A DNA stretch of 51,396 bases from assembly GCA_025061735.1 (NCBI GenBank), contig JANXAU010000031.1, forward strand, positions 1 through 51,396, read 5' to 3'. Positions 6,147 to 28,565 of the stretch are shown here, one piece after another. The notes beneath the pieces were generated by a model. It was not told where the DNA came from. It saw nothing but the letters and a program-made list of their open reading frames with translations, and made no database searches. The DNA comes from Candidatus Bipolaricaulota bacterium (GTDB lineage: Bacteria > Bipolaricaulota > Bipolaricaulia > RBG-16-55-9 > DRXL01). The translations under genes and the position numbers were made by a program. How positions within the stretch are numbered: the stretch's first letter is position 1; each line of letters begins with the position of its first letter.

Positions 6147-6176
6147 GACCCTTCGCGGCGCTCAGCATACGGGGGA

Positions 6177-7298
6177 GTGTCGGCGATGGCCAAGCGCATC
6201 TTGAAAGACTTAGAGCGCTTCAAAAGAATAGTGCGCGGCGAGATCAGAAAGAACTTAAAAGAGCTGATCGAGAGCGGCGAGATCGTGGGGCAGAAGGGCG
6301 GGGATATCATCAAGATCCCGCTCAAGTCCGTGCGCATTCCCCAGTTTCGGTACGATCCGCGTCAGGCCGGGGGGCTGGGGGCGGGCGAGGGCGAGATCGG
6401 TGACCCCGTACATATCGAGCCCTCTCAGGACGGCCAACCGGGCCAAGGCCCCGGCCCGCACTTTAGAGAAGTCGAGATCGAGCTGCGCGAGCTGGCCGAG
6501 ATCTTGGGGGAAGAGTTAGAACTCCCCAAGATCCAGCCCAAGGGCCAAAGACACGTCTTGCAAGGCGACGAAGAGTATTTGGACATCTCGACCGTCGGTC
6601 CCCAGACGCTCTTGATGAAGCGGCGTGCCTATCAGAAGGGCTTGCTGCGCCAGCTCTTGATGTCTCCCCAGCCCCTGGCCCCCGGCGATAGCATCGTGGT
6701 CACCCCCATCAAAGAAGACTTTCGCTATCTCTATGGCCAGCCCAGCCTCTCCCCCGAAGCCAGTTGTGTGATCATCTTCATGCGCGACGCGTCCGGCTCG
6801 ATGTCCGGCGAGAAGACCGAGATCATCCGCCAAGAAAATTGGTGGATCGATCTGTGGCTGCGCACCAACTATCAACACGTGGAGCGCGTCTATATCTTGC
6901 ACGACTACGAAGCGCAGGAGGTCAAAGAAGACGACTTCTATCATTTGAGCACGGGGGGCGGGACGCGCATCAGCTCGGCGTATGAGCTGTGCGACCGCGT
7001 GATCGACCGGCGCTATCCCCCAGAGCATTGGAACATCTACGCGTTTCACTTCAGCGACGGGGAGAATTGGATCGGCGACACCGAAAATGCCTGCGTGCCG
7101 TTGCTCGAGGAGAAGTTGCTGCCCAAGATCAATCTCTTCTGCTACGGGCAGGTGACGCTGGGGCGACGGTCGCCGGGGTTGCATCTGGTGAAGCTCAAGG
7201 AGCGCCTCGACGGTCATGAGAACTTCGTTACGTCTATCATCTCTAGCCGTGAGGAGATCTTGCAGTCCATCAAAGAGTTCCTTGGCAAGGGGCGATAG
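6177..7298 (+). CDS. yeaH: DUF444/YeaH-YhbH family protein (VWA-like)
   Basis: SCVIIFMRDASGSMSGEKTEIIRQENWWIDLWLRTNYQHVERVYILHDYEAQEV; neighbours prkA and spoVR. Alternative ATG start at 6186. Confidence 0.92.
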   Translation: MSAMAKRILKDLERFKRIVRGEIRKNLKELIESGEIVGQKGGDIIKIPLKSVRIPQFRYDPRQAGGLGAGEGEIGDPVHIEPSQDGQPGQGPGPHFREVEIELRELAEILGEELELPKIQPKGQRHVLQGDEEYLDISTVGPQTLLMKRRAYQKGLLRQLLMSPQPLAPGDSIVVTPIKEDFRYLYGQPSLSPEASCVIIFMRDASGSMSGEKTEIIRQENWWIDLWLRTNYQHVERVYILHDYEAQEVKEDDFYHLSTGGGTRISSAYELCDRVIDRRYPPEHWNIYAFHFSDGENWIGDTENACVPLLEEKLLPKINLFCYGQVTLGRRSPGLHLVKLKERLDGHENFVTSIISSREEILQSIKEFLGKGR

Positions 7299-7299
7299 G

Positions 7300-8937
7300 A
7301 TGAATCGCAGAAGGGTGCGTGAGCTGGAGGCGATGCGCAAAGAAGCGCGTCGTTTGGCGGAGTCGGTGGGACTCGACCCGACGCCGGTCATCTTCGGCGT
7401 GGTGGACTACGACCAACTGAACGAGTACTCGGCCTATGACGGCTTTCCTGAGCGCTTTCCCCATTGGTCGTTTGGGATGAGCTACGATTACTTCCGCAAG
7501 CGCTCGGCTTATTCGGGGTGGTGGACTTACGAATTGGTGCTCAACACCGATCCGGCGATCGCGTTCCTGCGCGAGAGCAACACCCCTGTTGAGAACAAAG
7601 GCGTGATGATTCACGTCTACGGCCACGCCGATTTCTTCAAGAACAACCGGTGGTTCAGCAAGACCCCCAAAGACATGATCAAGGTCATGCACACCCACGC
7701 CCAGCGCATCGAAGAGTACATGAACAAGTACGGCGTGGAGCGGGTCGAGTCGTTTATAGACAAAGCGCTCTCGATCCAGTACGAGATTGATCAATACGCG
7801 CCGTTCATCAAGCGCCGCTGGCGGGAGATCCCCAAGAACTACGAAGAGGAGCCGCCTTTGGAACCGAAGCGCATCCCCGTCAAGCGCGACTATATGGATC
7901 GGTTCGTTAACCCGCCCGCGTGGCTGGAGGAGCGTCGCGCTCTGTTGAAGCAGCGTTATGAGGAGCAAGCCAGGCGTCTTCAGGAGGAGACCGAGCTGCT
8001 CCAACCTCAGAAGGATCTCTTGGCGTTTTTGATCAAGTATGGGCGCTTGGAGGGCTGGCAGAAAGATATTCTGGCGATGATCCGGGAGGAGTCGCTCTAT
8101 TTTGTGCCCCAGATGCAGACGAAGATCATGAACGAGGGATGGGCGATGCTCTGGCAATCGAAGCTCATGGCCGAGTTTGCTACCCCGGAGGAGTTCGTAG
8201 ACCACGCGGATATGGTAAGCAAGGTGCTTGTCGGCGGGGTGGTCAATCCCTATGCGTTGGGCAAGCTCATCTGGGAGGATATCAAAGAGCGCTGGGACAA
8301 GGGGCGGTTTGGACGCGAATGGGAGCTGTGCCAAGACCCCGAAAAGAAAAAGCGCTGGGACACGAAGGCCAACTTGGGCACCGAGAAGATCTTCGAGGTG
8401 CGGCGCACCTACAACGACATCACGTTCTTGGCGGATTTCTTCACCGAAGAGCTGTTTGAGAAGCTCAAGCTCTTCGCCTATGAGTACATTCCCGAGACAG
8501 GGGCCTATCACATCACCTCTCGGGACTTTCATGACGTCAAGAAGAAACTGCTCTTTCAGTACACCAACCTCGGCCGCCCGGTGATCAAGGTCGCCACGGG
8601 CAACTATGGCAACAAGGGCGAACTGCTCTTGCTGCACATGTACAACGGGGTTGGCCTGAACCTAGAAGAGGCCAAGGAAGTCCTCAAGAACATCTATGCG
8701 ATGTGGGGGCGGCCGGTGAATCTGAAGACGATCATCAAGAGAAAAGTGAAAGATCCCGATCCCATGCGCAATCGCATCCATCCAGAGCGTCCGCTCACCG
8801 CCGTCTACGAAGAACAAGGCGTGCTCTTAAGATACGACGGGGAGAGCGTGCGCGAGCTGGCCCTCAGCAGCGACGAGATCGAGGAGATCCGGCTGGACGA
8901 AGATTACAATACCATCCCGCGGGAGTGGATCGGCTAA
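7300..8937 (+). CDS. spoVR: SpoVR family protein
   Basis: GMSYDYFRKRSAYSGWWTYELVLNTDPAIAFLRESN...VYGHADFFKNNRWF; start chosen at ATG 7300 rather than the longer ORF start. Confidence 0.93.
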   Translation: MNRRRVRELEAMRKEARRLAESVGLDPTPVIFGVVDYDQLNEYSAYDGFPERFPHWSFGMSYDYFRKRSAYSGWWTYELVLNTDPAIAFLRESNTPVENKGVMIHVYGHADFFKNNRWFSKTPKDMIKVMHTHAQRIEEYMNKYGVERVESFIDKALSIQYEIDQYAPFIKRRWREIPKNYEEEPPLEPKRIPVKRDYMDRFVNPPAWLEERRALLKQRYEEQARRLQEETELLQPQKDLLAFLIKYGRLEGWQKDILAMIREESLYFVPQMQTKIMNEGWAMLWQSKLMAEFATPEEFVDHADMVSKVLVGGVVNPYALGKLIWEDIKERWDKGRFGREWELCQDPEKKKRWDTKANLGTEKIFEVRRTYNDITFLADFFTEELFEKLKLFAYEYIPETGAYHITSRDFHDVKKKLLFQYTNLGRPVIKVATGNYGNKGELLLLHMYNGVGLNLEEAKEVLKNIYAMWGRPVNLKTIIKRKVKDPDPMRNRIHPERPLTAVYEEQGVLLRYDGESVRELALSSDEIEEIRLDEDYNTIPREWIG

Positions 8938-8940
8938 CCC

Positions 8941-10050
8941 GTGCTGCGCCGTCGCGTCTCTCTCTGGAAGCTCTTTGTCTTTGGGATTTTAGGTCTCTCT
9001 CTGGTCGTGATTTATCTTCAGGGGCAGGTCTCGGTTGTTCAGCAAGAAGAGTATCTGTTGGGCACGTATTTTCGGATCAAGGCCCAGGGGCGCGTGCGCG
9101 AGCGCGTTGTCGCGGCCTTGGAGGCCGCGTGGCGCGAGGCGCGCCGGCTCTCCGAAGAACTGAGCCGCACCGGCCCCGGCCCGCTGGGCGAGCTGAACCG
9201 CCGCGGCTCCGAAGAACCCGTCAAGCTCACCCCCGATCTTCTCGCGCTTTTAGAAGCAGCTCGGCAGTTCCGCGCGCTCAGCCACGGCGCCTTCGACCCG
9301 ACGATCGGGAAGATCGTCAATCTCTGGGGCTTCACTCAAGATTGGGATCGCGCGGGCGTGGGGCGCGTGCCCGCCCGCGAAGAGCTGGAGCCGTTCCTGG
9401 TCGAGCGCGACTTCTTTATAGACACGCTCGCTCAGACCGGACGCCTCAGCGGCCCCCACGTCGAGATCGACCTAGGGGGCATCGCCAAGGGCTATATTGT
9501 AGATCGCGTGATCGGCGTGCTGCGATCTTACGAACTCGACAACGCGCTGGTGGACGCTGGGGGGAATATTCGGGTCTTCAACGACCGGCCTCGACGGGTC
9601 TTGTGGTGGGAGGAGCGGCGGCCGTTTCGCATCGCCGTCCAGCATCCTCGCGATGAGCAGAAGATTCTTGGGGTTTTGGAGATCTGGGCAGATCAAGCGG
9701 TGGCGACGTCGGGGGACTACCAGCGCTGCTTCTTTGCTGATGCTCTCCAACGGATCTTTCCGTGTCGCTACGCCGACGACCCAGACAAGACGCGCTATCA
9801 TCATCTGATGGATCCCAAGACGGGGCAGCCGGCGCGGGGCTTGATCAGCGCGACGATCCTGGCGCCAACGGCCATGGAGGCCGACGCGCTCAGCACGGCG
9901 GTCTTCGTGCTGGGCGAGCGCGAGGGGTTAGCGCTCGTCGAGAGCCTGCCCAAGGTGGAGGGCGTCCTCGTGACCGACGACGGGCGGATCGTGACCTCAT
10001 CGGGGATAGAAGCGGGCCGCTTCCCCTCGGAGCTGAAGGCGGTGCGCTAG
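8941..10050 (+). CDS. apbE: FAD:protein FMN transferase (ApbE family), membrane anchored
   Basis: GAFDPTIGKIVNLWGF, VEIDLGGIAKGYIVDRVI, ALVDAGGNIRVF, HHLMDPKTGQPARGL, ADALSTAVFVLG; GTG start 4 nt after the spoVR stop. Confidence 0.93.
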   Translation: MLRRRVSLWKLFVFGILGLSLVVIYLQGQVSVVQQEEYLLGTYFRIKAQGRVRERVVAALEAAWREARRLSEELSRTGPGPLGELNRRGSEEPVKLTPDLLALLEAARQFRALSHGAFDPTIGKIVNLWGFTQDWDRAGVGRVPAREELEPFLVERDFFIDTLAQTGRLSGPHVEIDLGGIAKGYIVDRVIGVLRSYELDNALVDAGGNIRVFNDRPRRVLWWEERRPFRIAVQHPRDEQKILGVLEIWADQAVATSGDYQRCFFADALQRIFPCRYADDPDKTRYHHLMDPKTGQPARGLISATILAPTAMEADALSTAVFVLGEREGLALVESLPKVEGVLVTDDGRIVTSSGIEAGRFPSELKAVR

Positions 10051-15337: not shown

Positions 15338-16693
15338 ATGGAGAGAGTCTTTCGCTACATTGACGACCATCGCGACGAGTTTGTTGAGCGTCTCCGGACG
15401 CTCTTGCGCCAGCCCAGCGTCGCGGCGCAGAATCTGGGCATGGAGCCGTGCGCCAAGCTCGTCCAGCAGATGCTCGACGGCGTCGGCTTCAAGACCCAAC
15501 TTTTCTCTACCGACGGCTTCCCCGTCGTCTACGGCGAACTGGAGGGCGAAAGCGAAAAGACTCTAATGTTCTACGATCACTACGACGTGCAGCCCCCAGA
15601 GCCGTTGGAGCTATGGGAGTCCGACCCGTGGGACCCGCAGATTCGCGATGGAAAACTCTACGCGCGCGGGGCTTCAGACAACAAAGGCGATCTGACAGCC
15701 CGACTCTGCGCTCTAGAAGCCTATCAGAAAGTCATGGGCAAGCTGCCCATCACGATAAAATTCGTGATCGAAGGGGAAGAGGAGATCGGCAGCCCGCATC
15801 TGGGGCAGTTCGTCCAAGAGCACAAGAATCTCTTGAAAGCCGACGGCTGCATCTGGGAGTTCGGACACAAAGACTTAAAAGATATCCCCCAAATCTATCT
15901 GGGATTGAAGGGGATCTGTTATGTCGAACTACGGGCTAAGGGCGCAGCGAGCGATCAGCACTCGTCGTGGGGGACGATCGTGCCCAACCCGGCGTGGCGC
16001 TTGGTCTGGGCGCTGAGCACGCTGAAAGACGAAGACGAGAAGATCCATATCAAGGGCTTCACGCGCCGCGTGCGCAAGCCCAGCAAGGCCGAACTCCAAG
16101 CCGTGCAGCGGCTCGACTTCGACGAGGCCGGCTGGCGCGAGAAGTTCGGCATCCGTCATTATCTGTTGAAGCTGCGGGGCAACAAGCTCAAATATAAACA
16201 CTACTTTGAGCCGACGTGCACGATCTGCGGGATCTGGAGCGGCTACACCGGGCCGGGACCCAAAACCGTCCTCCCTGCCGAAGCACGAGCGAAGATTGAC
16301 TTTCGCCTAGTCCCCGATCAGGACCCGGATGAGATCGTGAAACTGCTAAGAAGACATCTAAAGAAGCACGGCTTTGACGACATCGAAGTGATCGGGATGC
16401 ACGGGACCTATCCGGCGCGCACGCCGATGGACGACCCGTTGGTGGGGATTGTCCAGCGCACCGCCGAGAGCATCTACGGAGTTAGGCCCGGCGTGCATCC
16501 GACCTCGGCCGCCAGCGGCCCGATGTACGTGCTCTGCCAGCAGTTGGGTATCCCTGCGGTCTCGACGGGCATCGGCTACGCGCACTCCAATACCCATGCC
16601 CCCAACGAGAACATTCGTATTGGGGACTTCCTTCAAGGGATCAAGCACATCGCGAGTATCGTGCACGAGTTTGGGGTCACTGCCACGGGATGA
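15338..16693 (+). CDS. M20 family metallopeptidase (dipeptidase-like)
   Basis: LMFYDHYDVQPPEP, YARGASDNKGDLTARLCA, FVIEGEEEIGSPHL, YAHSNTHAPNENIRI. Confidence 0.92.
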   Translation: MERVFRYIDDHRDEFVERLRTLLRQPSVAAQNLGMEPCAKLVQQMLDGVGFKTQLFSTDGFPVVYGELEGESEKTLMFYDHYDVQPPEPLELWESDPWDPQIRDGKLYARGASDNKGDLTARLCALEAYQKVMGKLPITIKFVIEGEEEIGSPHLGQFVQEHKNLLKADGCIWEFGHKDLKDIPQIYLGLKGICYVELRAKGAASDQHSSWGTIVPNPAWRLVWALSTLKDEDEKIHIKGFTRRVRKPSKAELQAVQRLDFDEAGWREKFGIRHYLLKLRGNKLKYKHYFEPTCTICGIWSGYTGPGPKTVLPAEARAKIDFRLVPDQDPDEIVKLLRRHLKKHGFDDIEVIGMHGTYPARTPMDDPLVGIVQRTAESIYGVRPGVHPTSAASGPMYVLCQQLGIPAVSTGIGYAHSNTHAPNENIRIGDFLQGIKHIASIVHEFGVTATG

Positions 16694-17729
16694 CCCACTC
16701 CCACTGCGGCCCGCGGAAGTACTGACCAATGATAATCAAGATGATCGCCGCGAGCATCAGCGATGTGAAGAGCAGGGTAGTGACGGGGCGGTCGCGCAGG
16801 CGTCTCCCGACGGGCTTGCTCTTGTCTTTGCGCCAGAATTCTAGATAAGGCTCAATATACGGAATTGCGATGAGGAAGAGCACGAAGAGAGCTGGTATGA
16901 TCACGCCCCCAATCGCCACGCTGGTAAACGGCCCGACGTTGGGCGAGATCGCCAGCAGCTCTTGAATCCCTACAAAGTACCAAGGAGCTTTTTCGGGGTT
17001 GGGCGTGAACGAGGGCGTCGCTGGCTCTTCTAGAGGTGCATCCCGAAAGACCGAATAGACCCCCAACCCCGCCAAGAGCAGGAAGAAGAGCGTGAACGAG
17101 ACGTAGAGAAAGTACGGGTACATGATGATCTCTTCTTCTTCGGCGGGGAGGCGTTTGGCAAATGCATCTAAGATCTTCTGGACCTGCTCTTCGGTGAGGG
17201 TCTCTTTGGTTGGGACTTCCTGGAGCTTGCGCTCTTTGGCGATATAGTTGAAGATCGCGTAGAGCGCTTCGAAGTCTTTGGGGTCGCCGCCGCCATCGGC
17301 GAGCGCCTCGGCACGATGGCTCAGATCGCGCAGGCGCTTGACCGTGATCGTGTGAGAGGTCGCGAGGCGCTTCAGGGGCACGTGCTCGGCCGCATAGGCC
17401 ATTACGTCGCGAATGATAGCGGGATCAATCTGGATCGCCTCGGCGACTTCGTAGCCTGGAACCTCGACTTCGATATCTTGCGTGACGTTGATCTGGCAGC
17501 TTAAGCGCCAGCCCTGAGCGATCTGCTCTTCTCCCAGAACATCCAGCTCGTTCTGGTTAGGGTCTCCAGCGCCCTTGCGCACCCGCACCGCGCAGGTCGA
17601 GCACTGCCCTTGGCCGTTGCACGTCGCGGGCAGCTGATCGTCGTAGCGCGTATCTTGAAGCAGCTTGAGCAGGTTCGTCCCAGCTTTGACGTCGAATTCC
17701 CTCTGGCCTAGGATGACGACTTTTGGCAT
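16677..17729 (-). CDS. Fusion protein: N-terminal [2Fe-2S] ferredoxin + C-terminal cytochrome b/b6f subunit IV-like domain
   Basis: N-terminal CNGQGQCSTCAVRV...WRLSC [2Fe-2S] ligand pattern; C-terminal TM segments with NPEKAPWYFVGIQELL (PEWY-type Qo-loop region). Confidence 0.85.
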   Translation of the reverse strand: MPKVVILGQREFDVKAGTNLLKLLQDTRYDDQLPATCNGQGQCSTCAVRVRKGAGDPNQNELDVLGEEQIAQGWRLSCQINVTQDIEVEVPGYEVAEAIQIDPAIIRDVMAYAAEHVPLKRLATSHTITVKRLRDLSHRAEALADGGGDPKDFEALYAIFNYIAKERKLQEVPTKETLTEEQVQKILDAFAKRLPAEEEEIIMYPYFLYVSFTLFFLLLAGLGVYSVFRDAPLEEPATPSFTPNPEKAPWYFVGIQELLAISPNVGPFTSVAIGGVIIPALFVLFLIAIPYIEPYLEFWRKDKSKPVGRRLRDRPVTTLLFTSLMLAAIILIIIGQYFRGPQWEWVIPWQ

Positions 17730-17733
17730 AGAT

Positions 17734-18372
17734 TTAGGCTTTCACACCCGCTTCTTGAGCCGCTTGGCTCAGGCGCTGGCGCACGGGAGCGCCGCCGGGA
17801 TAGCACCCGTCGAGCTTTGCCCTTCCTGAAGCCAACGCTTCGGCGAACTCCTCGCATGTCGGATACCCACACGCATTACAATCGAAGCCGGGCAGGACCG
17901 CTCGCAGCTTCGCCGCTGTGGGTGAGAGCTTCGCTTTGGGTTCCTCTTCGGCTTTGGGAGCGGCCCCGGCGACCTGCGGCCAGCCCATCACCAACGGCTT
18001 GAAGAGTTCGATCTTGAGATCGTTCTTGAGCGTAAGCTGACACGAGAGAATCCAGCCCTCTTTGCGCAGCTTGTCACTGAGGGGGCCGAGCATCGCGGTC
18101 GTGATCTGTTCAGGGGGGAGGCCCTCCAGCACTTTGACTCGACAGGTCGCGCACGTGCCCTTGCCGCCGCATTGCGCAAAGAGATCATAGCCGGCTTTCT
18201 TGAGCGCGGCCATCAAGTTCTGCCCCAACGGCAGCACCAATTCGTTGCCGTCGTTGGTGATCGCGACGCGGGCCTCGCCCTCGACCCGCAAGAGATTATT
18301 AACAATCGCTAAGACGAGCGCGACCGAGAAGGCCATCAAGGCCATCGTGCCGATCGCCACCAGATAGGGCAT
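17734..18372 (-). CDS. Chimeric NqrF/RnfB-like iron-sulfur protein (TM + [2Fe-2S] + RnfB-type 4Fe-4S domain; no FAD/NADH domain visible)
   Basis: TM; CGGKGTCATCRVKV...WILSC ([2Fe-2S]); LPGFDCNACGYPTCEEFAEALASGRAKLDGCYPGG (RnfB-like Fe-S domain). Confidence 0.8.
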   Translation of the reverse strand: MPYLVAIGTMALMAFSVALVLAIVNNLLRVEGEARVAITNDGNELVLPLGQNLMAALKKAGYDLFAQCGGKGTCATCRVKVLEGLPPEQITTAMLGPLSDKLRKEGWILSCQLTLKNDLKIELFKPLVMGWPQVAGAAPKAEEEPKAKLSPTAAKLRAVLPGFDCNACGYPTCEEFAEALASGRAKLDGCYPGGAPVRQRLSQAAQEAGVKA

Positions 18373-18380
18373 AGGCGCTC

Positions 18381-18980
18381 TTACCCTCCAAAGTCGCGGA
18401 TATTAATCATCCCGGAGAAGCCCACGAAGCTCATGGCCATCAGACCGGCGATGATGAGCGCCAATCCCGGCCCCTTTAAGCCTTCGGGGATGGGCGCAAA
18501 GCGCAGGCGCTCGCGGATCGCGGCCATCAAGATAATCGCCAACGCCCAGCCCACTCCTCCTCCAAACCCATATGCCGCGCTCTGCACAAACCCCAGATTC
18601 CACGTGGGGATCGCAAAGAGCACGCCCCCTAAGATCGCGCAGTTCACCGTGATCAACGGCAAGAAGATCCCCAGCGACGTGTAGAGCGCCGGCAGAAACT
18701 GCTTCATGAACATCTCCACGATCTGCACCAAGAACGCGATCGTCACGATAAAGACGATCAGCGAGAGATACCCCACCCCCAACGGCTGCAACACGAAGTG
18801 ATTGATCAGCCAATTGATGGGGATGGTCATCGTCAAGACGAAGATCACCGCCATGCCCATGCCCGACGCCGACGCGTATTCCCCCGAGACCCCTGATACA
18901 AACGGGCAGATCCCCAAGAACGTCGTTAAGAGAATGTTATTAGTCAGAATCGCGCCCATGACGATCAGGAAGATGTCCAT
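18381..18980 (-). CDS. rnfA: Rnf complex subunit RnfA (NqrE homologue)
   Basis: NNILLTTFLGICPFVSGV, VNCAILGGVLFAI, operon context. Confidence 0.92.
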   Translation of the reverse strand: MDIFLIVMGAILTNNILLTTFLGICPFVSGVSGEYASASGMGMAVIFVLTMTIPINWLINHFVLQPLGVGYLSLIVFIVTIAFLVQIVEMFMKQFLPALYTSLGIFLPLITVNCAILGGVLFAIPTWNLGFVQSAAYGFGGGVGWALAIILMAAIRERLRFAPIPEGLKGPGLALIIAGLMAMSFVGFSGMINIRDFGG

Positions 18981-18983
18981 ACC

Positions 18984-19682
18984 CTACGACCCTCCTCCCA
19001 CTTGGCCGCCGGGCGAGAAGTGCTTCACAATCCCGACATAAAGCCCGACCACCAAGAACGCCCCCGCCGGGATGATCATAATCACCCAATTGGTCCAGCC
19101 GCTGAAGAGCTGAATCCCGAACAAGCTACCAAAGCCCAAGAATTCCCGCACGATCCCCAACAGCGTCAGCGACATCGTAAAGCCCAAGCCCACGCCCAGC
19201 GCATCGAGCGCCGAAAGCCCAGGGCTGTTCTGGCTCGCAAACGCCTCAGCACGCCCCAAGACGAAACAGTTCGTGATGATCAACGGGACGTAGGGGCCCA
19301 GCGCCGCGGAGAGCGGCGGCATGTACGCGCGCAAGACAATATCTACGATCGTCACCCAGAACGCGATAATGATCATATACGCCGGTAGCCGGACCTCCGC
19401 GGGGATGACGTTGCGCAGGGCTGCGACCGTTGTGCTGGAGGCCACCGTGGCGACCATCGTCGCCAAGCCCTGCGCCATGCCGTTAATGGCCATGTTGGTC
19501 GCGCCCATCGTCGGGCACATTGCTAGAATCATGCGGAACGTCGGGTTGTCGTCCCAGATGTCGCGAACGAGTTCCTTCCAGCCCTTCGTCTGGGGAAGCT
19601 GCTGGGTCAACGGGATTGCTGGTGCCGATGCCGCTTGCACACTGGCTCCCGTTGGTATCGCCATCGTCTTTGCTTCGGCCAT
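18984..19682 (-). CDS. rnfE: Rnf complex subunit RnfE (NqrD homologue)
   Basis: LVRDIWDDNPTFRMILAMCPTMG, YVPLIITNCFVLGRAEAFAS. Start placed at MAEAKTMA. Confidence 0.92.
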   Translation of the reverse strand: MAEAKTMAIPTGASVQAASAPAIPLTQQLPQTKGWKELVRDIWDDNPTFRMILAMCPTMGATNMAINGMAQGLATMVATVASSTTVAALRNVIPAEVRLPAYMIIIAFWVTIVDIVLRAYMPPLSAALGPYVPLIITNCFVLGRAEAFASQNSPGLSALDALGVGLGFTMSLTLLGIVREFLGFGSLFGIQLFSGWTNWVIMIIPAGAFLVVGLYVGIVKHFSPGGQVGGGS

Positions 19683-19725
19683 CGTCGCCTCACTCCTTCG
19701 GGCGCTTGGACTGCTCGGCGCCCAC

Positions 19726-19752
19726 AAAAGCATACTATATTAGTCTGCTTTT
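19726..19752. other. Hairpin in the rnfG-rnfE intergenic gap
   Basis: AAAAGCATACTA-TAT-TAGTCTGCTTTT, imperfect 12-bp inverted repeat with one mismatch and A/T-tract ends. Confidence 0.6.
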
Positions 19753-19764
19753 TTCAACCCCTGA

Positions 19765-20478
19765 CTACCGGCTCTTCTGCTCGCTATCCAGCGCTTTTTT
19801 GAGCTTGGCGATCGCTTGGTTGAGCAGATCGCGCACGGTCGTAGACGTGAACGTCGCCCCGGTGATCGCGTCGAACTGATAGGGTTTTTTCGGCTGATCG
19901 GGGGCACGGAACTTGACATACTCGATCTTCGGCTCGGTCTGCATATCTGAAAACTGCTTCCAGAACCAGTCTTCGGTCATGCGGAAGCCCAACCCCGGCG
20001 TCTCGCCGATCTCGAACTCGACGACGTGCGCGCCCAGAATCGTCTTGAGATCGGGGCTGAGGGCGACTTGCATCGCGACCAGCCCTTGAAAGCCGCTGCC
20101 CGCAATCCGAATGACATAGGCTTTCAGCTCGCCCCCGATCCTATCGCTATACGCTTTCCAATAGAGAAAGCTGTCGGTCTTAACCTCTTCGATGTGCTCT
20201 CTGAAATACTGATCTATCTCGTCGGCACTGAGCTTGGAGACGCCCTCTTTGGGGAAGAGTTCTTCAGCCGTGTACACGCCCAACGCTACGAGAATGCTGG
20301 AGCGCAGGCGTGCCTTGGCGTTGGCTTCGATCGTCGCTTTGGTGACTTCATTGACGGCGGCTAAGCAGCCTCCCGCTACGATGGCGATCGTCGTCAAGAC
20401 CACTATCATGCGCCACTCTTTCGGGCCGAGAAGCTGCTTCTTCTTTTTGTTTTTGGGAGTCGCGCTCATTGGCTTCAC
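19765..20478 (-). CDS. rnfG: Rnf complex subunit RnfG (FMN-binding)
   Basis: DAITGATFTSTTVRDLLNQ flavinylation motif; N-terminal TM. Confidence 0.9.
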   Translation of the reverse strand: MKPMSATPKNKKKKQLLGPKEWRMIVVLTTIAIVAGGCLAAVNEVTKATIEANAKARLRSSILVALGVYTAEELFPKEGVSKLSADEIDQYFREHIEEVKTDSFLYWKAYSDRIGGELKAYVIRIAGSGFQGLVAMQVALSPDLKTILGAHVVEFEIGETPGLGFRMTEDWFWKQFSDMQTEPKIEYVKFRAPDQPKKPYQFDAITGATFTSTTVRDLLNQAIAKLKKALDSEQKSR

Positions 20479-21611
20479 CTCCGAGAGATCGCCGGTCCGG
20501 CGTAGGCTTTGGGGATGGTAAACCGATCCAACAACGGCGTGAACAGATTACCGATCAGAATGGAAAACGTGACCCACTCGGCGTAGCCCGTCAGGCCACG
20601 TCCCAGCACGGTCAAGACGCCCAGCATGATGCCGAAGATCCACTTGCCGCGCCGCGTCATCGGGCTGGTCACGGGATCTGTTGCGTTCAAAAACGCGGCG
20701 AAGAGCAGGCCCCCAGAGAGCACCGCGAAGAGGCCATCGGGGAAGCGCGTCGGCGCGATGAAGTGCAAGAACTGCGAAAACAAGCCCGTCGTCACGATCA
20801 TCACAATCGAGACGCGCCAGTCAATCACGCGCGTGTAGAGCATATACGCGCCCCCCAAGAGCAACAAGAGGGGGAACCCTGCTCCGAGGCTGTCCGCTCT
20901 TCCAATGCCTGTTACGAGTGTAAAGAGATCCGGCACCGGAAGATTCGGATCGTTAAACGCCCCCAAGGGAGTTGCCTTGGCAATCGCATCGATGCCCTTG
21001 GCGGTCTCGGGAGACCAGTGCACAAAGCCACCCAGCCCGTCGGTGAGGGGATTGAAGGGCGTGTACCAATACACGGTCATCTCTCGAGGGAAGGTCAGCA
21101 ACAAGAAAGCCCGCCCGGTGATCGCCGGGTTGAAGATATTGTAGCCCGAACCGCCAAAGATCTCTTTGATGACAATCGCTACGGCAATCCCTACAGCGAT
21201 TATCCACCAATTCTCGACGCGCCCCAGCGTCGGCGGCAGCGCCAACGCGTAGAGCATACACGTTACTAAGAGTCCTTCGGTGATCTCGTGACGCCGGATC
21301 GCGCAGAAGGTCAACTCCACTATTCCTCCGACGACATAAGTGACGAGCAGAATCGCCAGCGTAGACCAGCCATAGCAATAGATCGCTGCGATCACCAACG
21401 GGATACACGCGATCAACGGTGTGCCCATATAGCGCTGCATCCCGATCGCATCGCGAATGTAGGGGGCCTGACGGGCGGCCTTGTCGCTGCCGCCGAAGAT
21501 CGCGTCCTTAAGGCCCTCCCACAAAATAGCCAAGCCCTCGCGCTTCTGCTCTTTCAGTCGGTGATGAACGCGCTCGAAAAACTCATAGACTCTCTCTGGA
21601 AATCCCATCAT
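20475..21611 (-). CDS. rnfD: Rnf complex subunit RnfD (NqrB homologue)
   Basis: Multi-TM; FGGSGYNIFNPAITGRAFLLLTFP, DAIAKATPLGAF, FLNATDPVTSPMTRRGKWIFGI. Confidence 0.92.
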   Translation of the reverse strand: MMGFPERVYEFFERVHHRLKEQKREGLAILWEGLKDAIFGGSDKAARQAPYIRDAIGMQRYMGTPLIACIPLVIAAIYCYGWSTLAILLVTYVVGGIVELTFCAIRRHEITEGLLVTCMLYALALPPTLGRVENWWIIAVGIAVAIVIKEIFGGSGYNIFNPAITGRAFLLLTFPREMTVYWYTPFNPLTDGLGGFVHWSPETAKGIDAIAKATPLGAFNDPNLPVPDLFTLVTGIGRADSLGAGFPLLLLLGGAYMLYTRVIDWRVSIVMIVTTGLFSQFLHFIAPTRFPDGLFAVLSGGLLFAAFLNATDPVTSPMTRRGKWIFGIMLGVLTVLGRGLTGYAEWVTFSILIGNLFTPLLDRFTIPKAYAGPAISRR

Positions 21612-23044
21612 GCGGACACCTCTTCTAGCGCTTGGCGCTTGCCCTTGCGAATCTGCTCTAACAACGGAATCTTGCTGGGACAGACATAGGCGCAAAGCCC
21701 ACACTCGATACACGCCATTAGGTCTATCTCTAGAGCGTTGCTGACTAAATCATGGGCGCAATACTCTCCCAGCATCGCCGGGAAGAGATTTTGCGGGCAG
21801 ACATCGAGACAGTAGCCGCAGCGCACGCAGGCCCTCTGGTTGCCGTTGAGGCTCGTAGTGGCGCGTTTGAACTTGAGCCACGGCAGACTGATATAAGCTC
21901 CGGTGAACGAATCGCGATCGAAGCCGGGGCCGGCCACCGGCATCAGCTCGGGTTGCGCTTCTTTGAGGGCGATCACTGCGGGGGTCTCTTTGAGCACGGG
22001 CACGTCTAGGCTCTGCTGGTCGCGCCCGCGCAGCACGCTGCCCAAGATAACACGCGCCCTCGCGGCGCTGAGGTTGTTATCAAGCAGCTCCGAGATGGGC
22101 GTGCCGATGCGCACGCGCAGATTCTTCGGCTCTTTCACGGCAGACCCCGCCACGGAGATCACGCGCTCGACAAACGGCTTGCCCTCGACGACGGCTTCAT
22201 ATGCCGCGACGCACTGCTGCACGTCTTGAACGACGCACTGAATATCCGTGACATAGCCCCCTTGGGGCACCAACAGATCGAGCAGCGTGCGCACCAAGAC
22301 GGCGTCGTCGCCTTGGGGGTATTTGGGGAGCAATTGGTGAACCGTGCACCAATCGTAGTATTCTAAGCGCGTGATCAGTTCTTCGTAGATTCGGGGCTTG
22401 TTGTACCCCAGCCCGATGTGCACTTGGACGTTCCCCAAAGCTTGACGCAAAATCTTCATGCCGTTGACGAATTTGTCGAATTCTTCATATAAGAGCTGAT
22501 CGGTCGCCTCAAAGTACGGTTCTGTTTCGATGGCGTTGATGACCAGATAGCGTATTCTCTCTGGGGTGCCGTAGGCGGTAGCAAACGCCGTGGGGAAGCC
22601 CGCTTGGCCCCCCGAGGTGACGCCCGCGTCGTAGAGGATCTTTCCCAGCTCTTCGGCGCTCAAGCGCTCGTAGTTGAGCGTGGGGCGCTCTAAGAGTTGC
22701 CATGCATCTTGGCCGTCGGACTCGATGGTCACCGCGAGCGTCGGGCGCCCGTCGAGGGGATGGGGAAGCTTTTCTATCTTAGCGACTCTCCCGGAGATCG
22801 TCGCGTGAACGGGCGTAGAGGGCTTTTGGGGGTTGGGGTCGTTCTTGCCGATGATCTGCCCCGTCTTGACCCGATCGCCGACCTGGACGAGGGGCGCGAC
22901 TTCCGCGCTGAAGCCCTGGCGCAAAAAGACGATCGCTCGTTTGGGAAGCGGGGCTTGGCTCAAGCGCTTGCCGCGCGGCGTCCCCTCAAACAGCCCAAAA
23001 TAGTGCCCCCCTTTAAATGTCTTGAGCGACCCCAGAACGGCCAT
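21608..23044 (-). CDS. rnfC: Rnf complex subunit RnfC
   Basis: Two 4Fe-4S motifs CVRCGYCLDVCPQNLFP and CIECGLCAYVCPSKIPLLEQIRKGK; AGFPT and KYPQGD motifs; N-terminal biotinyl/SLBB-like region. Confidence 0.92.
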   Translation of the reverse strand: MAVLGSLKTFKGGHYFGLFEGTPRGKRLSQAPLPKRAIVFLRQGFSAEVAPLVQVGDRVKTGQIIGKNDPNPQKPSTPVHATISGRVAKIEKLPHPLDGRPTLAVTIESDGQDAWQLLERPTLNYERLSAEELGKILYDAGVTSGGQAGFPTAFATAYGTPERIRYLVINAIETEPYFEATDQLLYEEFDKFVNGMKILRQALGNVQVHIGLGYNKPRIYEELITRLEYYDWCTVHQLLPKYPQGDDAVLVRTLLDLLVPQGGYVTDIQCVVQDVQQCVAAYEAVVEGKPFVERVISVAGSAVKEPKNLRVRIGTPISELLDNNLSAARARVILGSVLRGRDQQSLDVPVLKETPAVIALKEAQPELMPVAGPGFDRDSFTGAYISLPWLKFKRATTSLNGNQRACVRCGYCLDVCPQNLFPAMLGEYCAHDLVSNALEIDLMACIECGLCAYVCPSKIPLLEQIRKGKRQALEEVSA

Positions 23045-23803
23045 CTAGCGCCTCTTCCTTTCTTCGGTCCAGTACGGCTTGCTATAGTCGTCCTTGCGGA
23101 TCCTCCAGAAGTGAAACGCGATTAAGAAGACCATCAAGGCCGGCAGAATATAGACGTGAATCACGTACCATCGCAACAGCGACGGCTGCCAGAGATCGTC
23201 GCCGCCTAGGAGCATCTGCTTCACATAGACGCCGATAAACGGCGTGCCGTCGGCGATGTTGCTGGCGATCTTGGCGGCGTAATAGCCCAACTGATCCCAA
23301 GGCAGAATATACCCGCTGAACGCGAGCATAATAGTAATCAAGAAGAGCAGCACGCCGACGACCCAGTTCCACTCCCGCGGCTTCTGGTACGACCCGGTGT
23401 AGAAGACCCGCAGCATATGAAAGAAGACGGCGAAGACCATCAGCTCGGCCGACCATTTATGAAGATTTCTAAAAAAGCGCCCCAACGGAACAGCGTTCAT
23501 GATCTCGCGCACCGAGTCATAGGCGCGCTCGGTCGAGGGCACATAGTAGAGCATCAGAAAGATCCCCGTGATGACCAAGATCACAAAGAGCCACGTCGAG
23601 ATGACGCCCATCCAGAGCCAGTTATAGCTCATGTTGGCCGAGTCTTTATGGATCTTGGCGGGGAGGATGTGGACGAAGAAATTGCGGCGGTTCATGGCCA
23701 GCCAGTCGGCCTCGGTCTGGGGGAGGGATTCGCGCCGGAAGATCGAGAGCCACAGACGAGAGCGCCGCAGCCCCTGTATCGCCAAGAGCAGTTGATCGAT
23801 CAT
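23045..23803 (-). CDS. Cytochrome b (b6-type N-terminal half)
   Basis: FFRNLHKWSAELMVFAVFFHMLRVFYTGSYQKPREWNW, SGYILPWDQLGYYAAKI, RWYVIHVYILPALMVFLIAFHFWRIRKDD (heme-ligand histidines). Confidence 0.95.
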   Translation of the reverse strand: MIDQLLLAIQGLRRSRLWLSIFRRESLPQTEADWLAMNRRNFFVHILPAKIHKDSANMSYNWLWMGVISTWLFVILVITGIFLMLYYVPSTERAYDSVREIMNAVPLGRFFRNLHKWSAELMVFAVFFHMLRVFYTGSYQKPREWNWVVGVLLFLITIMLAFSGYILPWDQLGYYAAKIASNIADGTPFIGVYVKQMLLGGDDLWQPSLLRWYVIHVYILPALMVFLIAFHFWRIRKDDYSKPYWTEERKRR

Positions 23804-24360
23804 GTGAACTTGATCTCACTCCCGTCGGGCACCGGACCGGTGACGACCCGGCCTTCCGGTGTCAAGTAGACGTTATTAGCGACGGTCTTGGCTTTGTCGA
23901 CTTGGAGGCGACCGTCGGGGGTCAGGCTCAGCGCAAAGAACGGGATGGGGCGCGGAGCCGGTCCCCCCAGCACTCTGCCGTCGCGGGCGAAGACGCTCCC
24001 GTGACAGGGGCAGCGCGCGTGGACGACGTTATATTCTTTGCTTGGAGGCCCAAAGGGCTTGTAGCTACAGCCCAGATGCGTGCAGACCATCGAAAGAGCC
24101 TGAAAGCCGTGCGGCGTGCGGAAGATAAAGACTTGCTTGGCTTCGATAGGGCGCATCTCCCCTTCTTGATAATCTTCGGGGCGGCCGACGGCGAACGTCG
24201 TCGTCGGCTCATACGTCAGTTGGGGATAGAGATAGACGGGGATGCCTTGGGCCACGCCCCCCAAGGCCAGCGCCAGCGAGCCCCACCCCAGCCAGCTCAA
24301 AAAGCTCCGGCGGGTGGGGCGCTCCTCAAAGAATTCTGAATCCTTCCCAACCTCCATCAT
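23800..24360 (-). CDS. Rieske [2Fe-2S] protein
   Basis: CTHLGCSYKP...CPCHGSVFARDGRVLGGPAPRPIPFF; RRSFLSWLGWGSLAL Tat-like N-terminus. Confidence 0.95.
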   Translation of the reverse strand: MMEVGKDSEFFEERPTRRSFLSWLGWGSLALALGGVAQGIPVYLYPQLTYEPTTTFAVGRPEDYQEGEMRPIEAKQVFIFRTPHGFQALSMVCTHLGCSYKPFGPPSKEYNVVHARCPCHGSVFARDGRVLGGPAPRPIPFFALSLTPDGRLQVDKAKTVANNVYLTPEGRVVTGPVPDGSEIKFT

Positions 24361-24389: not shown

Positions 24390-24418
24390 ATTATAGCAAG
24401 GCCTCGGAACCCTGTCAA
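24390..24418 (-). promoter_or_regulatory. Perfect consensus promoter of the Rieske-cytb-rnf operon
   Basis: Minus strand TTGACA (24418-24413)-N17-TATAAT (24395-24390). Confidence 0.85.
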
Positions 24419-24510
24419 ACAGAGTTTTTAGAGAATTTGCCCTCTGCTCGCCATGACGAAGATCATCCCTCAAGATGACGTCTGTCGCTCCAAAGTCCGT
24501 GTTCTCCATG

Positions 24511-24539
24511 TTGCACCCGAGCCTCGAAGCGTTTAGTAT
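24511..24539 (+). promoter_or_regulatory. Promoter of ribE (predicted leaderless)
   Basis: TTGCAC-N17-TAGTAT, 7 nt before ATG 24547. Confidence 0.5.
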
Positions 24540-24546
24540 TATGCTG

Positions 24547-25137
24547 ATGTTCACGGGGATCGTCGCCGATGTTGGAGAGGTCTTGCACGTCACGCCGGAG
24601 CGGCTCACCGTCTCGACCCCCAAGCTCTTTGCGGAGTTGGACGTGGGCGGCAGCATCGCCGTCAACGGTGTCTGCCTCACGGTGATCGAGCTGGCTCCGG
24701 CGACGGAGAGCTTTTCGGCCGATCTCAGCCCGGAGACGCGCGCGCGCAGCAATCTGGGAACGCTCCGGCGCAAAGATTTGGTGAACTTGGAGCTCCCCTT
24801 AAGATTATGGGACCGCCTTGGGGGGCACCTAGTCTTGGGGCACGTAGATACGCAAGCCGAGCTTGTCTCGATCACGCGCAAAGAGAAATCGCTGCTCTGT
24901 CGGTTCGCTGTTGATAAGTCGTTCTCGCGCTATCTGGTCGAGAAGGGGACGATTGCTCTCGATGGGATCAGTTTGACGATCTTCAATATCAAAGATGGGC
25001 AGTTCGACGTGGCGATCATCCCCCACACGTGGGAGGAGACGAATCTGCGCACGCGGCGTCCGGGGGATCGTCTCAATGTCGAGTTCGATCTGATTGGGAA
25101 GTACGTTGAGAATCTGCTTCGATGGTCATCGCGTTGA
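24547..25137 (+). CDS. ribE: Riboflavin synthase alpha chain
   Basis: [12 protein letters not shown]...[10 protein letters not shown]...[11 protein letters not shown]...LDGISLTI...[10 protein letters not shown]. Confidence 0.96.
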
Positions 25138-25151
25138 GAGGAGAAGAGACC

Positions 25152-26387
25152 ATGAGATTTGCCAAGATCGAAGAGGCTCTCGAAGCGCTCAAGCGCGGCG
25201 AGATGCTGATCGTCGTAGACGACGAGGACCGCGAGAACGAGGGCGATCTGGTGTTAGCGGCGCAGTTTGTGACCCCGGAGAAGATCAATTTTATGGCGCG
25301 CGAGGCGCGCGGGCTGATCTGCGTCCCCATGACCGGAGAGCGCCTAGACGAGCTGGGCCTGCGCCAGATGGTCCCCAGCGATCCCGACGGGCGCGAGACG
25401 GCCTTCACGGTTTCGGTAGACGCCCGCGAGGGCACTTCTACGGGGATCTCGGCCTATGATCGCGCGCAAACCGTCAAGGTGCTGATAGACCCGCGCACGC
25501 GCCCGTCGGATCTGGTGCAACCGGGGCATATCTTCCCGCTGCGCGCGCGCCCCGGTGGCGTCTTGCAGCGCGCCGGCCACACCGAAGCGAGCGTCGACCT
25601 GTGCAAATTAGCGGGCCTCTATCCCGCCGCGGTCATCTGTGAGATCATGAACGAAGACGGCACGATGGCTCGCCTGCCCCAGCTGATGGAGTTCGCTCAA
25701 AAGCACGGGTTGCTCATCACCAGCATTGCCGAGCTGATTCGCTATCGTCACGCGCGCGAGAAGCTGATCGAGAAGATCGCCAGTGCCCAGTTGCCTACTC
25801 TCTATGGTACGTTCACGATCCATGCCTATCGCAGCCTGACCGATGGCAAGGAGCATGTCGCTCTAGTGATGGGGGAGGTCGCGGGCAAGGAGAACGTCTT
25901 GGTGCGGGTTCACTCCGAGTGCCTGACGGGGGATGTCTTCGGGTCGCTCAAGTGCGACTGTGGCGAACAGCTAGAGAAAGCGCTCCAACGGATCGCCCAG
26001 GAGGGCTGTGGGGTCTTGGTCTATCTGCGTCAAGAGGGGCGCGGCATCGGCTTGGGGAACAAGATCAAAGCCTATCATTTGCAAGAGCGCGGGTTAGACA
26101 CCGTCGAAGCCAACAGGCGACTGGGCTTCAAAGAGGACCTGCGCGAGTACGGCATCGGCGTCCAGATCTTGAAAGACTTGGGGCTGAGCACGATTCGCAT
26201 CTTGACCAACAACCCCAAAAAGCTCGTGGGGATCGAATCGTATGGGATTACGATTGTGGAGCAGATCCCTCTGTTGGTGCGCCCTAATCCCTATAACTAT
26301 CAATATTTAAAAGCCAAGCACGAAAAACTCGGCCACTACTTGGCGCACATCTTCGACACGTTGGGGACGGAAGATGGGGAGATCTGA
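25152..26387 (+). CDS. ribBA: Bifunctional DHBP synthase / GTP cyclohydrolase II
   Basis: [71 protein letters not shown]. Confidence 0.97.
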
Positions 26388-26871
26388 AGGGTACAAGATT
26401 GCCATCGTAGCGAGCCGTTTCAATCATGAGATCACTTCAGCCATGGTGGAGGCGGCGCGGGCACGCCTGTGCGAGTTGGGGATTCACGAGATAGATCTCT
26501 TCTGGGTGCCGGGGGCGTTTGAGATCCCCAAGATGGTGCAGCGCCTAGAGCGATCCGAGCGCTATGATGGGATCTTGCCGTTGGGGTGTGTGATTCAGGG
26601 CGAGACGGCGCACTTTGAGCACATCTGTCGGACGGTCTCGGACGCGCTCATGCGGTTGACGTTGGAGGGCGAGACGCCCATCGTCTTTGGGGTGTTGACG
26701 ACCTACACGGAGGAGCAAGCACGGGCGCGCATCGCCAAGGCGGCCGAAGCCGCGGAGAGCCTTGTAGAACTGATGCGCTCTGTCGAGAGCCTTCACACCA
26801 CGGTCTCGCCCACGCGCCGCACCTCCCGCTCGCGCACCGGACGGACCTCTACGACCTCCTCTGGCTCGTAG
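26374..26871 (+). CDS. ribH: 6,7-dimethyl-8-ribityllumazine synthase with extended C-terminal tail
   Basis: [59 protein letters not shown]; tail overlaps the opposite-strand ATPase gene. Confidence 0.95.
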
Positions 26872-28511
26872 TCCAACAGCTTCAGCCAGTCTTCTAGATA
26901 ATCCGTCTTGGGGAAGATCTCGCTCTCTTTGTACTCTTGACGGATCGCTTCTTTCAAGTCGTCCAAGCTCACGCCCTCCCGATCGCTGCCCCGCTCGATG
27001 CAGCGCTCGATGGCAAACCCCTTGGCACGCTCTACGACCGATTTGATCAGCGCGCCGCTCACCAGATCGCTGCGATAGAGCGTCTCGCGCCGTCCGCTGC
27101 GCAACGCCACCTCCAAGAACGCCGTATCGCTCTCTCTGCGGAAGAGATCGTCGGTGATCTCTTCAATGAGAGCACGACGCGCCCTCTCGGGGTCGCCCCC
27201 GTGGCGCTCCAGCCACCCCGGATCGAGCGGAACTTTCTCATCGAGGTAGATAGCAAAGATGTCCCGAGCCGCTTCGCGATTGGGCCGCCCCACCTTCACT
27301 TTGCGCTCGATGCGCTCCGGCCTCAAGATCGCTGGGTCAATATAATCAGGACGGTTGCTCGTCAGCATCACGACGACGTTCTCCAACGAGACCAAGCCGT
27401 CCATTTCTGCCGCGAACTGCGGGACGACGGTGTTGGCGATATTTAGGTGTCTGCCGGAGCTGCGCACTCGCAGGAGCGCGTCGGCCTCGTCAATGAAGAT
27501 AAAGACGAGGTGCCCTTCTTTGGCGCGCTCGCGCGCCGTGGCGAAGATCTCGCGCACGAAGCGCTCGGTCTCCCCCAGCCACATATTCAGAAGCTGCGGC
27601 CCGTTGATGAGCATGAAGTACTCTTTGACGTCGCGCCCGGTGCGCTCGCGGTAGGCCTTGGTCAAGTTGTACGCGGTGGCCTTCCCGATGAGGGTCTTGC
27701 CGCAGCCCGGCGGCCCATAGAGCAGCAGCCCTTTTAAGTGCCGCTTGCCGAACTTCTTATAAAGTTCGGGATAGAGCAGCGGGCGCTCGATGGCGTCTCG
27801 GATGACTTTGATCGCTTCGGCCTGCCCGCCGATCTTCTCCCAGGGGATCTCGGGGATCTGTTCCAAGAAGTAGCCGCGCGTCTCGGCCTTCTGGAAGTGC
27901 TCCAGCGCGACGCGCATCGTCGGCTCTAGCCGGACCTCATCCCCGACCTTGAGAGGCTTGTTCATCAGATCCGAGGAGCGCAAGACGATCCGGCTGGAGA
28001 GCATCTGGGCATCCATCGAGATGCGCAGCCGTCCGTCGGGCAGGACCTCCGAGACCTTGACCACCGGGCCTTCGGGATGATACCCCAGATCGCCGATCAC
28101 CGCGAAGGCTTCGTTGATCTTGACGCGTGTGCCGATATGGAGTTTTTTCAGATCCAATTTGGGGTCGGCGTTGGCGTAGTATTCGGCGTCACCCACGGCG
28201 ATATACGCGATCTGATCTTGGGGATTTCCCAAGAAAGTGCCGATGCGGTTGGCGGGTGACGTGAGCTTTTCATACGTTTCGTTGAACTGGCGAATCGTTT
28301 CACGGGCCTCTTGGAGCTGGCGCTCATCGGCGCGCAACTGCTCGTAGAGCAGTTCAAAAAGTCCCATCCTAGGGTCGTTCTGCGGCGTGTATTTGAGGAT
28401 CTCTTCTAAGATCGCGATGGCGCGCATGCGAGTATCGGCGCGACCGGGACCGGTCAGCTCTTCTCGAGGGCGTTCCTCTTCGGGACGACGGTTGCGCGAG
28501 CGATCGGCCAT
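26793..28511 (-). CDS. arc: Proteasome-associated AAA ATPase (ARC/Mpa family)
   Basis: N-terminal coiled coil, OB-like region, IPWEKIGGQAEAIKVIRDAIE, LLYGPPGCGKTLIGKATAY, FIFIDEADALLRVRSS, TSNRPDYIDPAILRPER. Confidence 0.9.
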   Translation of the reverse strand: MADRSRNRRPEEERPREELTGPGRADTRMRAIAILEEILKYTPQNDPRMGLFELLYEQLRADERQLQEARETIRQFNETYEKLTSPANRIGTFLGNPQDQIAYIAVGDAEYYANADPKLDLKKLHIGTRVKINEAFAVIGDLGYHPEGPVVKVSEVLPDGRLRISMDAQMLSSRIVLRSSDLMNKPLKVGDEVRLEPTMRVALEHFQKAETRGYFLEQIPEIPWEKIGGQAEAIKVIRDAIERPLLYPELYKKFGKRHLKGLLLYGPPGCGKTLIGKATAYNLTKAYRERTGRDVKEYFMLINGPQLLNMWLGETERFVREIFATARERAKEGHLVFIFIDEADALLRVRSSGRHLNIANTVVPQFAAEMDGLVSLENVVVMLTSNRPDYIDPAILRPERIERKVKVGRPNREAARDIFAIYLDEKVPLDPGWLERHGGDPERARRALIEEITDDLFRRESDTAFLEVALRSGRRETLYRSDLVSGALIKSVVERAKGFAIERCIERGSDREGVSLDDLKEAIRQEYKESEIFPKTDYLEDWLKLLDYEPEEVVEVRPVREREVRRVGETVV

Positions 28512-28565
28512 AATCTCACCCAAGCTCTACAATAAAGAAAATCGGGACGCTTTGCAAACGCTGCC

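Follow-up and report, generated by a model that had tools for sequence, protein, structure and literature searches.

The window analysed here is a contig of 51,396 nucleotides (JANXAU010000031.1, assembly GCA_025061735.1) from a bacterium of the uncultured phylum Candidatus Bipolaricaulota, known from a metagenome-assembled genome (MAG) of 1.64 Mb in 80 contigs that is 93% complete (G000 in the following). On its minus strand lies a run of nine open reading frames, from 24360 down to 16677, each with Pfam or NCBIfam support. In the direction of transcription they encode a Rieske protein, a cytochrome b6-type subunit, RnfC, RnfD, RnfG, RnfE, RnfA, an RnfB-like protein and a fusion of a [2Fe-2S] ferredoxin domain (Fer2) with cytochrome b subunit IV. 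The two parts of cytochrome b are thus genes 2 and 9, with the rnf genes between them. An earlier note on this DNA had described such a nine-gene operon with embedded rnf genes, tight spacing and a single perfect promoter, and its gene coordinates, strand and embedding were borne out. The spacing is also as described, with overlaps or gaps of a few bases between neighbouring genes, except between RnfG and RnfE, where the gap is 82 nt if RnfE starts at 19682, the start preceded by the better ribosome-binding site; for RnfD the most likely start is 21608 or 21611, and not 21713. The promoter, TTGACA-17-TATAAT with a TG before the -10 element (24390..24418, minus strand), lies about 30 nt upstream of the first ATG and matches the sigma-70 consensus at 12 of 12 positions. 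A 12/12 promoter at a similar distance is found in four relatives of the same family (G002, G003, G005 and G006); in more distant relatives it is not recognisable.

The Rieske protein (23800..24360, minus strand; PF00355, 1.7e-11, and alignment) features an N-terminal RRSFL signal anchor and intact cluster boxes, CTHLGC and CPCHGS. The cytochrome b6-type subunit (23045..23803, minus strand; PF00033, 2.4e-44; NCBIfam ExtP, 3.9e-77) contains four histidine haem ligands, arranged as H-x13-H and H-x14-H. In the alignment to b6 (2zt9_A), the haem c_i cysteine (Cys35 of b6f) is absent and a Trp occupies the aligned position. In the fusion protein (16677..17729, minus strand; PF00111, 4e-11; ExtQ, 1.4e-12) the [2Fe-2S] domain is followed by a helical linker and a three-helix subunit IV with a KAPWY Qo motif, and the four cluster cysteines of the Fer2 domain are invariant in an alignment of 15 sequences of the fusion. 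The features expected of a bc1/b6f complex, namely four haem-ligand histidines, a subunit IV and a Rieske protein with both boxes, are all found. Two features of subunit IV predict a cytoplasmic location for the Fer2 domain, on the side of haem bH, RnfC and RnfB: the KAPWY loop belongs at the outer face, and eight Lys/Arg residues in the loop that connects helices 2 and 3 mark that loop as internal under the positive-inside rule. From this position Fer2 could link haem bH to the iron-sulfur chain of Rnf. The earlier note had remarked on the lack of a cytochrome c1 or other acceptor gene. This is right for the operon, in which neither cytochrome c1 or f nor any other cytochrome c is encoded, but not for the genome, which encodes c-type cytochromes, their maturation system and two haem-copper oxidases. 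Among the nine relatives listed, none has a CXXCH protein immediately next to the cluster, and three have proteins with 4-5 haems within about 4 kb of it.

The Rnf half comprises all six subunit genes (C, D, G, E, A and B) in the window as in the other full clusters described below. RnfC (21608..23044, minus strand, as are all rnf genes given here; TIGR01945, 338 bits with a cut-off of 246, and alignments) keeps both [4Fe-4S] motifs. Its GGAxFPxxVK and KQL motifs, which are common to the three solved RnfC proteins, are changed, and the glycine-rich FMN loop and conserved lysine are altered. RnfD (20475..21611; TIGR01946, 240 bits with a cut-off of 207) and RnfG (19765..20478; PF04205, 7.8e-13) carry the flavin-threonine motifs ATPL and ITGAT, respectively, and both intramembrane cluster cysteines are present in RnfE (18984..19682; PF02508, 4.6e-56) and in RnfA (18381..18980; PF02508, 7.7e-54; family alignment). 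The flavin transferase ApbE is encoded at a separate locus (8941..10050, plus strand; PF02424, 1.3e-71 at 9058-9963), so that the window holds, as for an Rnf complex, the [2Fe-2S] cysteines of RnfA/E, the FMN threonines of RnfD/RnfG and ApbE. The RnfB-like protein (RnfB'; 17734..18372; PF00111, 4.3e-11; PF04060, 5.9e-13; alignment) consists in its 212 residues of one membrane helix, an NqrF-type [2Fe-2S] domain and one [4Fe-4S] PF04060 domain. The description of this protein as an NqrF/RnfB chimera is apt for these two domains, but the FAD/NADH (FNR-like) domain of NqrF and the polyferredoxin domain of RnfB are both absent.

The arrangement recurs in relatives, of which the named ones are MAGs of Candidatus Bipolaricaulota labelled Acetothermia or Fraserbacteria. 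Of the 19 genomes of this order, 15 encode the fusion protein at full length, as against 0 of 81 genomes elsewhere in the phylum; wherever the contig extends, the fusion gene adjoins Rnf genes in the same order. A chance arrangement is excluded by its recurrence in relatives as distant as about 45-60% identity for the majority of the proteins. Outside the group, a pattern-based scan of GTDB genomes returned no hybrid cluster among the best 80 of 114 relatives, the pattern being two short exact peptides that distant hybrids could escape. Of these 80, 66 lie outside the group and have ordinary Rieske/cytochrome b clusters, mostly from Acidimicrobiia, without Rnf genes and without a matched Fer2 fusion.

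Within the order the cluster occurs in two forms, which together amount to a natural deletion series. The full cluster is found in G000, G002, G003, G005, G006, G009 (whose contig begins inside cytochrome b, the Rieske gene not being visible there) and G013, as well as on a contig fragment of G007. Seven genomes (G004, G011, G012, G015, G016, G017 and G018) carry a reduced cluster in the order Rieske, cytochrome b, RnfC, RnfD, RnfB' and Fer2-subunit IV, without RnfG, RnfE and RnfA; it is contiguous in six, and the seventh, G015, whose contig begins inside RnfD, keeps RnfD, RnfB' and the fusion. Neither RnfA/E (PF02508) nor RnfG (PF04205) has a match anywhere in the seven reduced genomes. ApbE, by which RnfD and RnfG receive their FMN, mirrors this split: of the eight full-cluster genomes all but G007 (72% complete) encode it, and of the seven reduced ones none does. 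In the reduced RnfD the TPL of the ATPL flavin motif is kept and the preceding alanine lost, while the cluster cysteines of RnfC ([4Fe-4S]), RnfB' and Fer2 are kept in all available reduced sequences. At its N-terminus the reduced RnfB' carries additional helices; in three genomes these match the last two helices of RnfA (E-values 7.6e-10, 6.2e-6 and 1.6e-5), in a fourth the match is weak, and in the remainder none is detectable. Such a relic suggests that the pump was lost, not acquired later. A tree of five proteins favours two changes between the full and reduced forms, with a single change not rejected (p-AU 0.119). G004 has two RnfB-like genes (L015 8405-9770), the first encoding the RnfA relic and Fer2 alone, the second Fer2 and PF04060 without a membrane helix.

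Deprived of RnfA, RnfE, RnfG and flavinylation, RnfC, RnfD and RnfB' cannot make up an Rnf pump. Their genes have nonetheless kept their place between those for cytochrome b and subunit IV, and the simplest reason would be that the three proteins work with the cytochrome b unit. The earlier note had proposed a physical and functional union of the two halves. The functional part is likely, in view of the conserved order, the Fer2-subunit IV fusion and the retention of RnfC, RnfD and RnfB' after the loss of the other three, while the physical assembly is something we infer. That the operon encodes one hybrid membrane electron-transfer complex, working as outlined below, has in our estimate an even chance of being correct. 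Its core would be a b6-type quinol-oxidising Rieske/cytochrome b unit, with c-type cytochromes and an oxidase as the expected outward acceptors of its electrons. A cytoplasmic arm derived from Rnf and made up of RnfC, the RnfB-like protein and RnfD would be wired to this core via the [2Fe-2S] domain of subunit IV, located at the cytoplasmic opening of haem bH and the inner quinone site. In the source genome, RnfA, RnfE, RnfG and RnfD would add the usual ion-translocating loop. The term 'ion-translocating ferredoxin/quinone machine', used in the earlier note, is plausible only for the full form, with its RnfA/E cysteines, RnfD/G threonines and ApbE, and impossible for the reduced one.

As to the direction of electron flow, the electron path in solved Rnf complexes is U-shaped, running through RnfB, RnfA/E, RnfG, RnfD and RnfC (PMC11889175), NqrF and NqrB show that [2Fe-2S] input and quinone output are possible within the Rnf/Nqr family (2025 Rnf/Nqr review), and in the SNFR of Prevotella bryantii, a supercomplex of NQR and fumarate reductase, electrons are transferred to haem b (PMC8516057). 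With these precedents, we favour a route in which a low-potential cytosolic donor would deliver electrons to RnfB', from where they would pass through RnfA/E, RnfG and RnfD to the RnfC clusters, then to Fer2 or quinone, and on through haem b and the Rieske protein to cytochrome c. One assembly would in this way do the jobs of complexes I and III, and relatives with complex I would have lost the pump and been left with the arm alone. More tentatively, electrons may pass directly from the Rnf chain via the [2Fe-2S] domain of subunit IV to haem b, by-passing the free quinone pool and uniting the functions of complexes I and III, in which case the reduced form would amount to a complex III of a new type, one that has an electron port on the cytosolic side; we hold this to be possible though clearly less probable than the joint complex as such.

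The respiratory equipment of these genomes provides the setting for such a complex. The complex I markers NuoH and NuoD are present in 7/7 reduced genomes and absent from the full-cluster genomes G000, G003, G005 and G013, each at least 91% complete. Nearly all genomes of the order encode haem-copper oxidases and cytochrome c maturation, G000 having one aa3-type and one cbb3-like oxidase cluster; both traits are absent from the two genomes of f2, a family without the hybrid. In G012 (90% complete) the reduced hybrid contains the single cytochrome b found, the genome also encoding a haem-copper oxidase whose subunit II has a CXXCH motif, and the hybrid is probably the quinol:cytochrome c reductase of this organism. 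NrfD-type proteins, as would be expected of a competing alternative complex III, are absent in G000 and most relatives. The marker of the futalosine menaquinone pathway was found in 0/19 genomes of the order.

Several observations weigh against a joint complex or its proposed function. A shared operon by itself does not establish one complex, and the structure models of the fusion protein and the reduced RnfB' (pLDDT 67-70) are of low confidence and inform on domain layout only. The RnfB-like protein is missing the multi-[4Fe-4S] ferredoxin-docking domain and scores below the TIGR01944 cut-off. NADH use by RnfC is doubtful as well: its NADH/FMN loops being altered, the donor may not be NADH. 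Three genomes, G002, G006 and G007, have a Nuo-type cluster alongside the full hybrid, and the reduced genomes are related, so that their correlation with complex I represents one or two independent events. Finally, G000 and several relatives possess a second Rieske/cytochrome b cluster with multihaem cytochromes. The three genomes that carry both speak against complex I strictly taking the place of the Rnf pump, and this idea is rejected, as is, in view of the second Rieske/cytochrome b cluster, the hybrid as sole complex III in G000. The second cluster of G000 (L122 3694-8779) encodes cytochromes with 3, 9 and 18 CXXCH motifs. The Nuo-type clusters (L112 1447-12759, L113 6140-10908 and L114 9654-15660, in G002, G006 and G007) begin with a protein resembling the glutamate synthase small subunit, and NuoE/F/G-like genes were not noticed when their translations were read.

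The two halves might instead be separate complexes that share an operon since both serve respiration. Each has most subunits of a known complex, and different complexes commonly share operons; however, the cytochrome gene is in two parts with the rnf genes between them, subunit IV bears the fused Fer2 domain, and RnfC, RnfD and RnfB' persist in seven genomes where RnfA, RnfE, RnfG and ApbE are absent genome-wide and an Rnf complex is impossible. We regard this explanation as unlikely. To the same low degree we credit a flow opposite to the favoured one, in which low-potential electrons derived from quinol would pass via haem bH and Fer2 to RnfB'/RnfC and, with the ion gradient assisting, would go to ferredoxin or NAD(P)+ to serve Wood-Ljungdahl carbon fixation. 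Quinol bifurcation does yield a low-potential electron, Rnf is reversible (PMC11889175), and acetogenesis has been proposed for Ca. Acetothermum by Takami et al. (PMC3267732). On the other hand, the potential of haem bH is much too positive for NAD+ reduction unless a pump assists, yet genomes devoid of RnfA/E/G retain the arm, and the NADH site of RnfC looks altered.

For the reduced form it is also conceivable that the Rnf subunits are a redox-silent or regulatory scaffold on a plain quinol:cytochrome c reductase. The loss of flavin attachment by ApbE, of RnfG and of RnfA/E would fit this, and NqrA, an RnfC homologue that lost its cofactors, offers a precedent (PMC11889175), but the retained cluster cysteines of RnfC, RnfB' and Fer2 speak against silence, and we consider the scaffold very unlikely, the weakest of these alternatives to the hybrid complex.

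Among the other genes of the window, the riboflavin genes ribE, ribBA and ribH (24475-26871, plus strand) diverge from the operon. The same genes adjoin the cluster or lie within about 4 kb of it in several relatives with either form, and are perhaps tied to flavin supply. Further away are a proteasome-type AAA ATPase with OB domains (26793-28523, minus strand; PF17758, PF16450), unusual in bacteria outside a few phyla, and a set of three consecutive open reading frames resembling PrkA kinase, YeaH and SpoVR (4089-8937, plus strand), as judged from translations only.

The usual view has Rnf pumps operating between ferredoxin and NAD, and bc complexes between quinol and cytochrome c. If the hybrid complex is real, its evolved union, together with the natural gradation from full clusters to those without the pump, would illustrate how modules of respiration merge and get trimmed, and would provide a model for the direct wiring of a low-potential iron-sulfur arm to a haem b Q-cycle enzyme. 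It would also bear on energy conservation in a phylum that branches deeply and combines acetogenic with aerobic traits. The earlier note knew of no described complex of this composition, which holds for the complex but not for the gene cluster: Takami et al. (2012; PMC3267732) mention that in Ca. Acetothermum autotrophicum rnfCDGEAB is clustered, in the manner of an operon, with genes for Rieske and cytochrome b proteins. That cluster (OP4C155-0162), from the same phylum, is essentially the one in the window; the single sentence devoted to it treats it as an Rnf pump and contains no joint complex, fusion or reduced form. A full-text search of the open-licence literature found no paper describing a joint Rieske/cytochrome b-Rnf complex, and neither 'Rieske' nor 'cytochrome b' occurs in the 2025 Rnf/Nqr review. 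The bridging role proposed for Fer2, the reduced form, the RnfA relic and the correlations with ApbE and complex I appear to be new.

Compared with known systems, RnfC, D, G, E and A are homologous to those of the Rnf complexes of Acetobacterium woodii (9eri), Azotobacter vinelandii (8ahx) and Clostridium tetanomorphum (7zc6), and the full form shares with these the intramembrane cluster cysteines and flavin threonines. It differs from them in an RnfB with an NqrF-type [2Fe-2S] domain and without polyferredoxin, in the altered NADH/FMN loops of RnfC and in its position inside a cytochrome b operon. Na+-NQR likewise combines a membrane helix with the NqrF [2Fe-2S] ferredoxin domain, has in NqrB a counterpart of RnfD and makes a quinone acceptor plausible, but the FAD/NADH domain is missing here, and RnfC keeps the [4Fe-4S] clusters that NqrA does not have. 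With cytochrome b6f, b6-type complexes and ExtP/ExtQ the cluster has in common the split into cytochrome b6 and subunit IV, the four haem ligands and the Rieske protein; it differs in the missing haem c_i cysteine, in KAPWY in place of PEWY, in the predicted cytoplasmic Fer2 domain on subunit IV and in having no cytochrome f/c1 gene in the operon. A parallel for the joining of an NQR/Rnf-family pump to a haem b enzyme is SNFR (PMC8516057), where the partner is fumarate reductase and the physical link was found biochemically and not via a shared operon or fusion.

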